DNA of 64,000 nucleotides from Balneola sp. GTDB lineage: Bacteria; Bacteroidota; Rhodothermia; Balneolales; Balneolaceae. Position numbers and translations under genes: made by a program. Positions 38,696-42,491 of this stretch are shown here, piece after piece. The first letter of the stretch is position 1. Each line of letters begins with the position of its first letter. The stretch is taken from positions 62,001 through 126,000 of the forward strand of contig NZMW01000001.1 in the NCBI GenBank assembly GCA_002694685.1, given 5' to 3'. The notes under the pieces are model-generated. The model saw only the letters and a program-made list of their open reading frames with translations, searched no databases and was not told the DNA's origin.

Positions 38696-39811
38696 ATGAT
38701 TATTGGAGTCCCAAAAGAGATTAAAACCCACGAGAATAGAGTAGCTATTCAGCCGGGCGGCGTTGTCCAAATGAAGCGTAATGGCCATGAGGTATTGATT
38801 GAAAACAATGCCGGTGTTGGCAGCGGCTTCAGCAATCAGCAATACATTGATGCCGGCGCTACCATTATTGATGACGTAGAAGAAGTTTGGAAAAAGGCTG
38901 AAATGATCATGAAAGTGAAAGAGCCGATCGCTGTTGAATATCCAAGAATGAGGGAAGGACAGGTAATCTTCACGTATTTTCACTTTGCAGCTGAAGAAGC
39001 ATTAACCAAAGCTGTTGTTGATGCCAAGTGTATTGCGATTGCTTACGAAACAGTTGAAAAAGCAGACCGATCACTGCCGTTGCTGATCCCGATGAGTGAA
39101 GTTGCAGGACGAATGGCAGCACAGGAAGGAGCAGTTTATCTCGAGAAACCCAAAGGCGGATTAGGAAAACTGATGGGCGGAATTCCGGGCGTTCCTCCAG
39201 CCAAAGTTCTGGTATTGGGTGGTGGTATTGTTGGCGTGAATGCCGCTAAAATTGCTGCCGGAATGGGAGCTGATACCACGATCATGGATATCAATATGCC
39301 AAGACTGCGATATCTGGACGATGTGATGGATAAGAATGTGAACACCATGTTTTCATCCGAAGCGAATATCAGAAAAATGCTTCCGGATGTAGACTTGATT
39401 ATTGGCGCTGTACTGAAGCCCGGCGCTAAAGCTCCGCACTTGGTAACTCGCGATATGCTTAAAGACATGAAGCCCGGAACCGTATTGGTTGACGTGGCTA
39501 TTGACCAGGGTGGATGTTTTGAAACCTCTAAGCCAACTACCCACAAAGATCCTGTTTATATGGTTGAAGATGTGGTGCACTATTGCGTGGCCAACATGCC
39601 GGGAGCTGTACCTTACACCTCAACCATGGGGCTTACAAACGTGACTCTTCCTTACGCAGTGTCTCTGGCAAACAAGGGCTGGAAACAAGCGCTTAAAGAT
39701 GACAAGGAACTCCTGCAAGGTCTTAACATCGCTAACGGCACGATTGTATACAAAGACGTAGCCGAAGCTTTCGATATGGAATGGTCCGAAGTAAACTCCG
39801 TTCTGAACTAA
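38696..39811 (+). CDS. ald: Alanine dehydrogenase
   Basis: NAD-dependent L-alanine dehydrogenase of 371 residues, the family's normal size. Markers: MIIGVPKEIKTHENRVAIQP at the N-terminus (pyruvate-binding Arg and Lys), FTYFHFAAEEALTKA with the conserved His (near 96), the nucleotide-binding VLVLGGGIVGVNAAKIAAGM (near 169-188), and the C-terminal NMPGAVPYTSTMGLTNVTLP. It interconverts alanine and pyruvate with ammonia. It is monocistronic, ending in a strong terminator. A divergent or antisense frame across its 5' end is not credible. Confidence 0.95.
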   Translation: MIIGVPKEIKTHENRVAIQPGGVVQMKRNGHEVLIENNAGVGSGFSNQQYIDAGATIIDDVEEVWKKAEMIMKVKEPIAVEYPRMREGQVIFTYFHFAAEEALTKAVVDAKCIAIAYETVEKADRSLPLLIPMSEVAGRMAAQEGAVYLEKPKGGLGKLMGGIPGVPPAKVLVLGGGIVGVNAAKIAAGMGADTTIMDINMPRLRYLDDVMDKNVNTMFSSEANIRKMLPDVDLIIGAVLKPGAKAPHLVTRDMLKDMKPGTVLVDVAIDQGGCFETSKPTTHKDPVYMVEDVVHYCVANMPGAVPYTSTMGLTNVTLPYAVSLANKGWKQALKDDKELLQGLNIANGTIVYKDVAEAFDMEWSEVNSVLN

Positions 39812-39878: not shown

Positions 39879-40142
39879 TTGCCCCACCTATCAGGACCCT
39901 ATCTCTGTCTCTTTCCCTCCGGCGTGCCTTTCATACATTTTAAGCCTTAGAGAGGCCGCAAGGAAAGAGGACTCCTTGGGGAGATACATGAATTAAATAC
40001 TATTTGGGTGATAAAAACGGCCGCTTCAACTGAATAATAGATAAGAAGTAGCTAAAATCTCTTACAGGTGTCTCCTTCCTTGCGGAGCGTTAGCGTCACG
40101 GAGGGAAGGAACAAGGATGGGTCCTGTTAGGAAAGGCAAGAT
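39879..40142 (+). repeat. Hairpin repeat element, copy 1
   Basis: A 264 bp noncoding element. The left end TTGCCCCACCTATCAGGACC is an imperfect inverted match of the right end (reverse complement CTTGCCTTTCCTAACAGGAC). Next inward, CTCTTTCCCTCCGG (39909-39922) pairs with CGGAGGGAAGGA (40100-40110), and CCGCAAGGAAAGAGGAC pairs with GTCTCCTTCCTTGCGG. The middle of about 100 bp is not conserved. The outer 80 bp on the right differ from copy 2 at only two positions. Confidence 0.75.
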
Positions 40143-40192
40143 GGGTAGAATCTAAAGCTTGAAGTTTTCCTCAAAATAAATCTAATTCTTAC

Positions 40193-40567
40193 ATGAATCT
40201 CACTTGGAAATCCATAACAGAAATAGCAAGAGAGCTGCGTACGAATCCAACTCCTTCCGAGAAATTATTATGGAAATATTTGAGAAACCGCCAGCTTGGT
40301 GGATACAAATTCCTTCGTCAAAAGCCCATTGTACATGAGCAACACAACAAACGCCGATATTTCTACATCGCGGATTTCTATTGTGCTGAATTGAAATTGG
40401 TTGTTGAACTAGATGGCAAGATCCATGATTTCCAAAAGAGTTATGATTATCAGCGAGACTATGTACTTAATGGGTTGGGATTGAATGTGCTTCGAATTGA
40501 GAATGAAGAGTTGATGGATTTGGATAGGGTGTTGAGGAAGATTTTGGACTATTCTGAAAAGAATTAG
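40193..40567 (+). CDS. DUF559 (Vsr-like) endonuclease-domain protein
   Basis: A 124-residue protein of the DUF559 family, related to very-short-patch-repair and PD-(D/E)xK nucleases. The N-terminus ARELRTNPTPSEKLLWKYLR is the family signature (T-xx-E-x-LLW), followed by GYKFLRQKPI, the putative active-site strands YIADFYCAELKLVVELDGKI-H (Asp, Glu, Asp in the expected spacing) and RDYVLNGLGLNVLRIENEEL. The family is spread by gene transfer and its cellular role is unsettled. The gene is enclosed by two copies of a 260 bp repeat. Active-site residues look intact. Confidence 0.88.
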   Translation: MNLTWKSITEIARELRTNPTPSEKLLWKYLRNRQLGGYKFLRQKPIVHEQHNKRRYFYIADFYCAELKLVVELDGKIHDFQKSYDYQRDYVLNGLGLNVLRIENEELMDLDRVLRKILDYSEKN

Positions 40568-40824
40568 TTTGCCCTCAGGGTAGGACCCTATCTCTGTCTC
40601 TTTCCCTCCGGCACGCCTGTAGTACATTCTATCCCTTTCTTTGGCCGCAAGGAAAGAGGACGCCTTGGGGAGGGTAGTGTTGAAAAATTATTTGGGCTTT
40701 AAGGTTATTCTTTTGGCTGGATTTAAGCAGCAGCTAAAAACTCTTACAGGCGTCTCCTTCCTTGCGGAGCGTTAACGTCACGGAGGGAAGGAACAAGGAT
40801 GGGTCCTGTTAGGAAAGGCAAGAT
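40568..40824 (+). repeat. Hairpin repeat element, copy 2
   Basis: A 257 bp copy in the same orientation as copy 1, beginning immediately after the DUF559 stop codon and ending 8 bp before the stop of the convergent membrane hydrolase. The first 31 bp from AGGACCC (40582-40612) are identical to copy 1 (39893-39923); the centre differs. In the inner stem one position has changed on both sides relative to copy 1 (T opposite T becomes G opposite C). Confidence 0.75.
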
Positions 40825-40831
40825 CTCTTCC

Positions 40832-41821
40832 CTAAAACAACATCTCCAAAAACGCCTCCCGAACTTTCTCACTGGCATCCCTATACGCCCCAAACTCCAC
40901 ATGCTGATTAGTGTTCGCCGTATCAATCTCAATTCCCCAGAGAGGAGATAGCGTAGTGGGGAGCATCGAATAGCGCCCATCTCCAATGACGTTATTGTAA
41001 TCAGGATGCTGAATCAAAACCCCATCTGATAGTTTAGAGAAACGGGCGATGTCGTTATACAAAGTAGTTCCTTTCAGGTGTCTGAATTCCTGCTCCCATT
41101 TGAGGAGGGGTGCGGTTTCGCCTTTATAAATTATAGGCTCAGCAAAGGGAATGAGCTTAGCTCCAGCCGAATAGAGCTTATCATCGGCCACATAGCGAAT
41201 GCTCCACAGCCACTGGTTGGCGATGGTGGGTTTTACGATGAGCTGACTGATTTCGTGATTGTTGGCTTCGGCAAGTTGCCAAGCAATCTGAGTGGCTTTT
41301 CGCTGTTGCGAAAATCCGAAGAGGAGATACAGCGCTATCCATCCGAGGGCGAGCCAGGCGTAGAGTTGCTTCCGGTTGTAGAAGGCTATCCCGGTGAAGG
41401 CAATAACCCAAATTGTGAACAGGGGATCAAAGACGGAGATAATATCCAGAGAAACACGGGTATCCGTAAACGGCCAAAAAAGGAGCACGCCGTAGCTGGT
41501 AAAGACATCGGTAATACCCGCGGTGGCATAACCGGCTAAACTGAACAAGTAGGTTTCTTTGAGGGTGAGATATTTCTTTACAAACATCCATAGCAGGAGA
41601 GTAGCTACCAAAGCACCAATAGGAATGAACACAATGGAATGAGTAAACTGCCGGTGCAACTCCAGGTTTAACAGCGGATCGGAGGCGCTGGAAAGGAACA
41701 CATCGAGGTCGGCGAGCATGGCTGAGGCCAGTCCCGTAAAAGCCGCCGCCCGAAAGCTTCGTTTGTCCGCAAATGATTGCGAAGCGGTGGCACCAATAAG
41801 TCCGTGGGTGACGGGGTCCAT
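40832..41821 (-). CDS. Membrane metal-dependent hydrolase (YdjM/PF04307 type)
   Basis: A 329-residue protein. The N-terminus MDPVTHGLIGATASQSF carries the first His motif, then ADLDVFL (Asp-x-Asp) and HRQFTHSIVFIP, the hallmark pattern of the LexA-binding/YdjM membrane hydrolase family. About four membrane helices follow (near 55-175), then a 150-residue soluble C-terminal domain. The family is predicted to be zinc-dependent; no substrate is known. It abuts repeat copy 2 and converges with the DUF559 gene. Both flanks of this gene are repeat-filled. Confidence 0.82.
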   Translation of the reverse strand: MDPVTHGLIGATASQSFADKRSFRAAAFTGLASAMLADLDVFLSSASDPLLNLELHRQFTHSIVFIPIGALVATLLLWMFVKKYLTLKETYLFSLAGYATAGITDVFTSYGVLLFWPFTDTRVSLDIISVFDPLFTIWVIAFTGIAFYNRKQLYAWLALGWIALYLLFGFSQQRKATQIAWQLAEANNHEISQLIVKPTIANQWLWSIRYVADDKLYSAGAKLIPFAEPIIYKGETAPLLKWEQEFRHLKGTTLYNDIARFSKLSDGVLIQHPDYNNVIGDGRYSMLPTTLSPLWGIEIDTANTNQHVEFGAYRDASEKVREAFLEMLF

Positions 41822-41982: not shown

Positions 41983-42049
41983 TCATTTCGCGGCGAATGC
42001 CCGAAATCTGGATGTATGTTAGGGTACAGTTTTGATTTATTGGCACCAT
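41983..42049 (+). repeat. 67 bp direct repeat, copy A
   Basis: Begins TCATTTCGCGGCGAATGC and ends TTTATTGGCACCAT. It aligns without gaps to 42425-42491 with roughly nine mismatches. The pair brackets the 41 bp unit B and the third large hairpin element. Confidence 0.75.
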
Positions 42050-42055
42050 CCAGAT

Positions 42056-42071
42056 CCCTGCCTTCGTAGGG
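42056..42071 (+). repeat. Mini-hairpin CCCTGC-CTTC-G(T)AGGG, copy A
   Basis: A 6 bp stem (one G-U type pair) with a CTTC loop, matching a second copy at 42584-42599. This CCCTGCCTTCGCAGGG type is a short dispersed palindrome. Confidence 0.6.
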
Positions 42072-42094
42072 ATGACTGACTTACGCTAATCCTA

Positions 42095-42146: not shown

Positions 42147-42390
42147 AGGACCCTATCTCTGTCTCTTTCCCTACGGCACATCGGTAATACAATTTATCCC
42201 TTAGTTGGGCCGCAAGGAAAGAGGACTCCTTGGTGATAGCAAAGTAGTGAAAGCTTGTCGGGTTTTTTGATTTTCCTTGCTGGCTTGATGCAGAAAACAC
42301 TATCAGAACTCAGAAAAGTGTCTCCTTCGTTGGTCCCGCTTAGCGGGATTAGGGAAGGAACAAGGATGGGTCCTGTTAGGAGGGGTTACA
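42147..42390 (+). repeat. Hairpin repeat element, copy 3 (diverged)
   Basis: It has the same left end (AGGACCCTATCTCTGTCTCT) and right end (GGAACAAGGATGGGTCCTGT) as copies 1 and 2, in the same orientation. In the terminal stem the left side reads CCCTA (42169-42173) and the right side TAGGG (42350-42354), where copies 1 and 2 have CCCTC and GAGGG: a compensatory change. An extra hairpin CCCGC-TTA-GCGGG lies within the right arm. No DUF559 gene is attached to this copy. Confidence 0.72.
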
Positions 42391-42424: not shown

Positions 42425-42491
42425 TCATTTTGCGGCGAATGCTCGGAATCTGGATGTATGTTAGGTTTTAGCTTTGATTTATTGGTGCCAT
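42425..42491 (+). repeat. 67 bp direct repeat, copy B
   Basis: Begins TCATTTTGCGGCGAATGC and ends TTTATTGGTGCCAT; gapless partner of 41983-42049. Confidence 0.75.

Follow-up and report, generated by a model that had tools for sequence, protein, structure and literature searches.

Holder et al. 2015 (PMC4666352) described intrastrand-triplex repeats of the BoxC/PIT/TM type, which occur in over 260 genomes and number 23 in Escherichia coli MG1655; triplex formation was reported for the E. coli motif. These repeats are intergenic, linked to rearrangements and, in five E. coli cases, arranged as inverted pairs; they were not associated with transposons, phages or plasmids, their neighbors belong to no functional class, and no regulatory pattern was found for the E. 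coli copies. No enzyme is known for BoxC/TM repeats (PMC4666352), and the role of the DUF559/YcjD nucleases is not agreed. The name 'ycjD' is absent from the main text of PMC4666352, and we found no link between DUF559 and repeats in the open-access literature searched. CGTC-tagged REPs form a REP superfamily that reportedly has no enzyme of its own (PMC3733652), and the same paper names the Rickettsia palindromic elements. The latter are palindromic repeats that lie in frame within protein genes, and to our knowledge they carry no nuclease gene.

The window (the whole stretch of 64,000 nucleotides of Balneola sp. DNA that was analysed) contains a lone DUF559 gene flanked by two direct copies of a repeat of ~250 bp. 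Our results suggest that this locus likely belongs to a mobile-element system with a Vsr-fold DUF559 nuclease as its sole gene, triplex-forming ends and gene-less REPIN-like copies; recognition and cutting of the repeat are inferred, without biochemistry, and no movement was seen. The features of the locus are as follows.

38696..39811, + strand: alanine dehydrogenase-like gene (ald), upstream host flank
39893..40142, + strand: repeat copy A, REPIN-like, with a variable AT-rich middle between two inverted hairpin/triplex units
39897..39968, - strand: left triplex unit of copy A, pyrimidine arm-tip-purine arm-ACA-third strand, third strand outermost
40074..40122, + strand: right triplex unit of copy A, from the triplex-motif scan
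40193..40567, + strand: DUF559 (YcjD-like, Vsr-fold PD-(D/E)XK) nuclease gene, 124 aa
40582..40824, + strand: repeat copy B, in direct orientation relative to copy A
40586..40657, - strand: left triplex unit of copy B
40756..40804, + strand: right triplex unit of copy B
40832..41821, - strand: membrane hydrolase-like gene, downstream host flank
42147..42381, + strand: repeat copy C, solo and gene-less
42151..42222, - strand: left triplex unit of copy C

The product of 38696..39811, which stays beside the DUF559 unit in two sister species, is what we take, from its sequence, to be an alanine dehydrogenase-like protein, and that of 40832..41821 is likewise taken to be membrane hydrolase-like. 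Copies A and B are 80% identical as a whole, with 85% identity over the left 91 nt and 95% over the right 101 nt, and the outer inverted ends of copy A extend a few bases further left (TTGCC..CAGGACCC / GGGTCCTG..GGCAA, read by eye). The earlier note, made by a model from the sequence alone, had claimed two direct noncoding copies around a lone DUF559 gene, which held; it had placed them 50 bp before and 0 bp after the gene, of which the distance to the ATG was right and the second failed, the actual spacing being 14 bp after the stop codon. Its claim that the ends are imperfect inverted repeats able to fold was also borne out, ssDNA folding giving z = -3.3 in the window copy and -3.7 in one on contig C17, and it had omitted the solo copy C, the triplex architecture, the link to BoxC and the spread over phyla. 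Chance pairing at this locus is excluded, because a flank-versus-flank control (700 bp per side) was positive at 1 of 123 window positions and that one was this very locus. Rfam gave no window match at the curators' cut-offs.

The genome from which the window comes (G000; 3.95 Mb, 17 contigs) holds about ten copies of the repeat (17 blast pieces) and three PF04480 matches. Both solitary DUF559 genes, the second being C17:135997-136338 between two copies, are enclosed by copies, and each has an extra solo copy nearby; the third match is weak and lies within a 1473-aa frame (C17:242886-243068, L026 region), which is maybe a further in-frame case. Copies without a nearby DUF559 gene are found on C3, C4 and C16. 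As separate observations, three weaker class-0-like right hairpins (class 0 being the repeat class of the window) are spaced by ~415 bp at C10:526656-527525 in a tandem-array-like manner, and a different dispersed repeat of ~95 bp lies on both sides of solo copy C (41983-42077, and a second at about 42425-42491), with copies numbering at least nearly thirty in G008 and upwards of ten in G000.

Alignment A1, composed of 22 chosen class-0 copies (diverged copies of G001, G005 and G007 were left out), displays an outer stem, a hairpin, an inner stem around a variable AT-rich middle, and a second hairpin. The RNAalifold consensus of these copies is a four-way junction, with both-sided changes in just 3 of 28 pairs, and by eye the hairpin tips appear swapped wholesale between copies yet still palindromic. 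When each hairpin is read with its purine arm on the 3' side, it leads into a short linker (mostly ACA) and then into a tail that mirrors the purine arm: the right end reads AGGGAAGGA-ACA-AGGATGGGT and the left end AGGGAAAGAG-ACA-GAGATAGGGT, the stems of the window copies being TCCTTCCTT/AGGGAAGGA. The element end fits the rule of a purine-motif intrastrand triplex, a potential that is inferred from the sequence, physical folding not having been shown. At the left end, tail and stem covary in 21/21 copies (T:T-A in 11, C:C-G in 10, and one gap among the 22), where the counts refer to copies and not to independent events. A hairpin with a purine arm and a mirrored third strand is present in both units of copies A and B and in the left unit only of copy C, whose right unit (about 42317-42371) gave no match in the strict triplex scan. 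Note that a T.G mismatch beside the tip of the class-0 right hairpins is kept in 21 of the 22 copies. Vsr is known to cut at T.G. The mismatch was dropped as a general Vsr-type cue because it is missing from the perfect hairpins of classes 2 and 3.

The window protein belongs to Pfam PF04480 (DUF559; 107 bits, cut-off 20.6), and no known transposase family reached its Pfam cut-off in this protein (HTH_Tnp_Tc3_2, 21.4 against 31.5). Residues E23, D61, H78 and D85 are invariant among 43 diverse homologues, E72 and D74 are conserved at ≥90%, and an AlphaFold2 model (pLDDT 87.6) matched 3hrl (Z 14.9), a domain of the homing endonuclease I-Bth0305I (Z 12.0; sequence match E 0.048) and Vsr (Z 9.6). 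Judged by conservation and structure matches, the fold of the protein is Vsr-like and its acidic and His residues are conserved. The protein is likely a nuclease, because of the four invariant residues and the matches of the predicted model to 3hrl, I-Bth0305I and Vsr; its cut site is unknown. A reading of DUF559 as a defence gene was not retained, as PADLOC gave only weak matches (restriction-enzyme profiles). In four DUF559 copies (L066, L073, L109 and L235) a stop lies inside the matched domain, and these are perhaps decaying genes.

The association between gene and repeat is general. PF04480 is present in 31 of 57 order-level relatives, a few of them with weak matches only, and 84 of the 96 listed places were analysed, 12 being omitted because the match was weak or truncated at a contig end, or because it adjoined an included gene (two of the omitted places, L053 and L054, displayed no direct repeats). 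Direct repeats between the 500 bp upstream and the 500 bp downstream (E 1e-3 or better) were found at 57/84 loci, that is 31/34 in the own genus and 26/50 outside it, the gap to the ATG often being 45-60 bp and that behind the stop codon 0-30 bp. Using 400-bp flanks and E 1e-5, and leaving out 6 long ORFs, direct or inverted repeats flanked 59 of 78 genes versus 1 of 151 shifted control positions. Triplex motifs lie at the three genus loci that have no direct repeats (L079, L092 and L105), so that all 34 genus DUF559 genes tested (3 weak or contig-cut matches excluded) adjoin a direct repeat or a triplex motif. The earlier note had named DUF559 genes of the clade without any such repeats as a refutation, and this test thus came out in its favor.

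Beyond the order, we gathered a wide set of DUF559 loci from named genomes, which is biased toward the window protein because the best 80 of 565 relatives were kept, and which overlaps the order set at least twice (L202 and L258 are apparently the same genes as L098 and L033). It covers Bacteroidota, Nitrospirota, Pseudomonadota, Chloroflexota, Acidobacteriota and Cyanobacteria, as well as Zixibacteria, Brocadia, KSB1 and Patescibacteria, and flanking direct or inverted repeats were found for 25 of 61 testable genes versus 4 of 121 control positions. Segments of 300 bp adjoining the gene were scanned for the triplex motif, which was required to have 8 triplets, with up to 1 mismatch allowed where the linker is short and no mismatch where it is a hairpin. 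The motif was present in 94/156 near segments of the order set (56/78 genes), versus 1-4% of distant segments and 4/780 shuffles; in 71/129 near segments of the wide set (48/67 genes), versus 2-5% and 4/645; and in 14/24 near segments of a plasmid-collection set (11/12 genes), versus 0-4% and 0/120. The last sample consists of 12 genes chosen from 37 matches and includes two near-identical A. brasilense loci and two loci from one Sphingomonas strain. Because distant segments are richer in coding sequence, a gene-level background was counted too, in four annotated 50-kb stretches of DUF559-carrying replicons from the plasmid-collection set: 7 of 175 background genes, and 1 of the 50 under 600 bp, have the motif within 300 bp. 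The strict scan found nothing beside 22/78 order-set and 19/67 wide-set genes; by class, the motif was lacking for 2/5 rep3, 1/2 rep4, 9/19 other repeat-flanked genes and 10/26 genes without direct repeats. The outermost upstream motif lies on the minus strand in 27 cases versus 19, and in 29 versus 20 for the wide and plasmid sets, and the outward-facing order is a mere tendency.

Two further points concern the distribution. A role as phage or plasmid cargo was rejected, with matches in 2 of 50,697 phage and 37 of 72,556 plasmid records, several of the latter being chromosome-sized. In G025, 15 dispersed matches to the class-0 hairpin model form a compact REPIN-like family, with several inverted pairs of ~105 bp overall, one of them near the DUF559 locus L076.

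Repeats of at least 40 bp from 52 loci fell into five multi-locus classes (11, 9, 6, 5 and 2 loci) and 19 singletons. On the protein tree of 84 nucleases, the five class labels over 33 loci need 4 changes, the minimum possible, and 0 of 500 shuffles were as low for the window class, which forms a single clade of 11 (SH-aLRT 95). Counted against all other tree rows, rep1 takes 3 changes and rep3 takes 2; branch support is 99 for rep4 and 42 for rep2. Note that the tree rests on 128 columns and that many of its forks are unresolved. These results show that the repeat class follows the nuclease clade, as cognate classes. Part of this congruence reflects the vertical inheritance of one locus; the window class alone is found in several places that are unrelated, G000 having two of these.

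The repeats tend to go with the nuclease, without being strictly tied to it. The generic motif GRGGGGATTNAGGGGTG occurs in 12 of the 57 relatives, namely 12/31 with DUF559 and 0/26 without (p = 0.0002), and within the family in 12/24 versus 0/10 (p = 0.006), these p values being uncorrected for relatedness. Class-0 model matches occur in 14/57 genomes, among them G008 (two class-0 copies, no DUF559) and G003 (five matches, four of them strong, no class-0 nuclease), indicating that solo copies outlive the nuclease, which counts against strict dependence. The earlier note had held that repeats equally common beside unrelated genes in genomes without DUF559 would refute its reading. This test, too, came out in its favor, the generic motif being found in none of the 26 such genomes, although the two copies of G008 count against it.

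Comparison of orthologous sites showed presence and absence of the unit. The C17 unit is missing in 6/6 relatives displayed, and in G001, G005 and G007 the neighboring gene runs near-directly into the next shared sequence. A solo class-0 copy between two genes that we take to be stress-protein genes (names by eye) is missing in five relatives displayed, and G006 has at this spot a full unit of another class instead. Inspection by eye of the C17 sites, where the intergenic DNA is too diverged, revealed no target-site duplication. The window locus, for its part, seems to be ancient and vertically inherited, the order ald-unit-hydrolase being common to G000, G005 and G007. In G001 this site is split in three, namely ald with a solo element, a unit beside what we take to be a kinase-like gene (name by eye), and an element with the hydrolase; the unit beside the kinase-like gene carries a copy of the ald downstream flank, and every break falls at a repeat.

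DUF559 units were also found to reside inside host proteins. Nineteen long DUF559 ORFs had been set aside as a negative control, for which they proved useless because they bear the motif themselves, many as in-frame insertions: the motif lies within 1.1 kb of 17/19 long ORFs versus 116/145 solitary genes, and with short linkers only, over the whole locus, in 14/19. A Pfam scan of 10 of the 19 found host domains on both sides of DUF559 in 8, the hosts being LeuRS, PheT, IleRS, TatD (whose second stretch was left unplaced by the Pfam table), three HsdR and an Eco57I-type methylase; the short-linker motif was absent in PheT, one HsdR (L042) and the methylase (L049). In the LeuRS of G041, ~170 residues break into the start of the editing domain, with a detected motif at the end of the insert and, by eye, a motif-like palindrome at its start. 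Among 30 genomes drawn from the order, LeuRS was matched on both sides of the gap in 27 of the 28 others with LeuRS matches, and the insert is missing in 11/11 aligned relatives, some of which have short extensions of their own. These in-frame DUF559 stretches look like insertions of a discrete unit with the frame kept. The earlier note had asked for orthologous loci without the unit, and both the C17 unit and the LeuRS insert provide them.

What is shown is the genetic side of this proposal, namely the unit, how widely it is spread over phyla, the cognate classes, the filled and empty orthologous sites, and the in-frame residence in conserved genes. By these genetics, DUF559 and the triplex-type repeats form one system. 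That the nuclease recognises the folded repeat end and drives copying is an inference, made likely because the repeat class matches the nuclease clade, and without experimental test. As a putative mechanism, the G-rich strand would become single-stranded (on the lagging strand or by cruciform extrusion) and its end would fold; the nuclease would recognise the folded end and nick beside it, and repair or strand transfer would then copy the element elsewhere, with or without the gene. Gene-less copies would be dependants of the REPIN type. A REPIN-gene-REPIN tandem would result from the entry of a gene-bearing copy into a resident REPIN or from recombination between the two, and the element repeats may later act as recombination breakpoints. 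The earlier note had suggested that the repeat is the substrate of the nuclease, which is supported although cutting of the repeat remains an inference, and that the trio is a mobile unit like REP/RAYT with a different enzyme, which the generality of the association and the empty sites support.

Three other readings should be weighed. In a homing reading, a free-standing homing endonuclease would cut alleles that lack DUF559, the repeats would be homology arms or landing sites, and spread would occur by recombination and not by triplex recognition. In its favor, the I-Bth0305I catalytic domain is the closest solved relative after 3hrl (Z 12.0; sequence E 0.048), the in-frame stay within conserved genes resembles that of homing endonucleases in inteins, and a single crossover at a REPIN would give REPIN-gene-REPIN. 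Empty LeuRS alleles exist (11/11 aligned), but that they are cut is only a supposition of this reading. However, plain homing predicts neither the dispersed gene-less copies nor the tie of each multi-locus class to one nuclease group, with the window class at unrelated sites, and we consider this reading unlikely.

A bystander reading, in which some other enzyme inserts triplex repeats that gather around dispensable small genes including DUF559, can point to repeats that lie away from DUF559 and outlive the nuclease. It is nevertheless very unlikely, given the 11/12 plasmid-collection DUF559 genes with the motif against 7/175 others (1/50 under 600 bp), the class-clade congruence, the restriction of the generic motif to DUF559-positive relatives (12/31 versus 0/26) and the motifs that accompany the gene into coding sequences. 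The remaining possibility, that the repeats are terminators, attenuators or insulators of a dangerous nuclease or defence gene, would fit the way they hug both gene ends and the weak restriction-enzyme profile matches of the nuclease. It is made very unlikely by the G000 copies on C3, C4 and C16, with no DUF559 gene nearby, by the lack of a regulatory pattern for the E. coli copies (PMC4666352) and by the residence within LeuRS, where terminators would not be expected in frame.

Returning to the mobile-element reading, two orphans would, if it is true, explain each other, as BoxC/TM repeats would gain an enzyme and DUF559/YcjD nucleases a function; a three-stranded fold would serve for the recognition of mobile DNA, and a nuclease of the restriction type would move it. 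The in-frame copies in tRNA synthetases would represent a selfish element tolerated within essential enzymes. A bolder version, toward which we lean without firm conviction, is that this is an unrecognised class of mobile elements present in many phyla, that BoxC/TM repeats are its gene-less derivatives, and that its full units can settle in frame within essential genes such as those of LeuRS and IleRS. The proposal is directly testable, because E. coli ycjD is then predicted to affect the stability of 23 mapped sites.

Compared with known systems, the class-0 hairpins resemble CGTC-tagged REPs in often having a GCGTC-like inner tag, and the AT at the stem start and the CCA tail of CGTC REPs are absent from them. 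Up to 300 bp from DUF559, a scan of 80 loci detected only two half-motifs of the GTCATTCCC type, each with one mismatch (L256, at 160 bp; L224, at 299 bp); the sole full pair was at a distance of 655-728 bp (L263). DUF559 is not shown to be the CGTC REP enzyme, because these two half-motifs were all that occurred within 300 bp and the full pair is distant; CGTC REPs as its partner are unsupported, with no full pair within 300 bp in the 80 loci. Separately, an inverted CGTC-type REP pair, not beside DUF559, lies at L294:41329-41410 on an Azospirillum lipoferum plasmid, a replicon that it shares with triplex-type pairs.

With EDxHD/Vsr-like homing endonucleases (I-Bth0305I), the system shares the fold, the conserved acidic and His residues and the residence within conserved genes, but DUF559 units occupy many different sites and have dispersed gene-less repeats. 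REPIN/RAYT systems (REPtrons) are similar in their inverted hairpin pairs, their dispersed gene-less copies and an enzyme gene flanked by cognate repeats, all of which are seen here. In contrast, the enzyme here is a Vsr-fold PD-(D/E)XK nuclease and not an HUH tyrosine transposase, and the element has a triplex-type tail; the GTAG tag of REPIN/RAYT is absent from the class-0 hairpins, as read on alignment A1.

The E. coli repeats provide another parallel. A motif ~168 bp after E. coli ycjD (L292), a gene so named in the record annotation, has exactly the sequence of TMECO no. 9 (PMC4666352, Table 1), and we take ycjD to lie at the coordinates of this copy in MG1655. The gene-plus-motif stretch is present at ≥80% in 3364 of 5426 E. 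coli genomes, and 5375 of the 5426 contain relatives of the 56-bp motif stretch, with a median of 18 places per genome. The copy beside ycjD fits the G/C-rich E. coli-type consensus and the window copies do not, so that the window repeat is TM-like in its predicted working without being named a member of the E. coli family. Altogether, the E. coli and window repeats have in common a hairpin with a mirrored purine third strand, whereas the Balneolaceae sequences depart from the E. coli consensus, and BoxC/TM was described without an enzyme whereas the repeats studied here are tied to a nuclease family.
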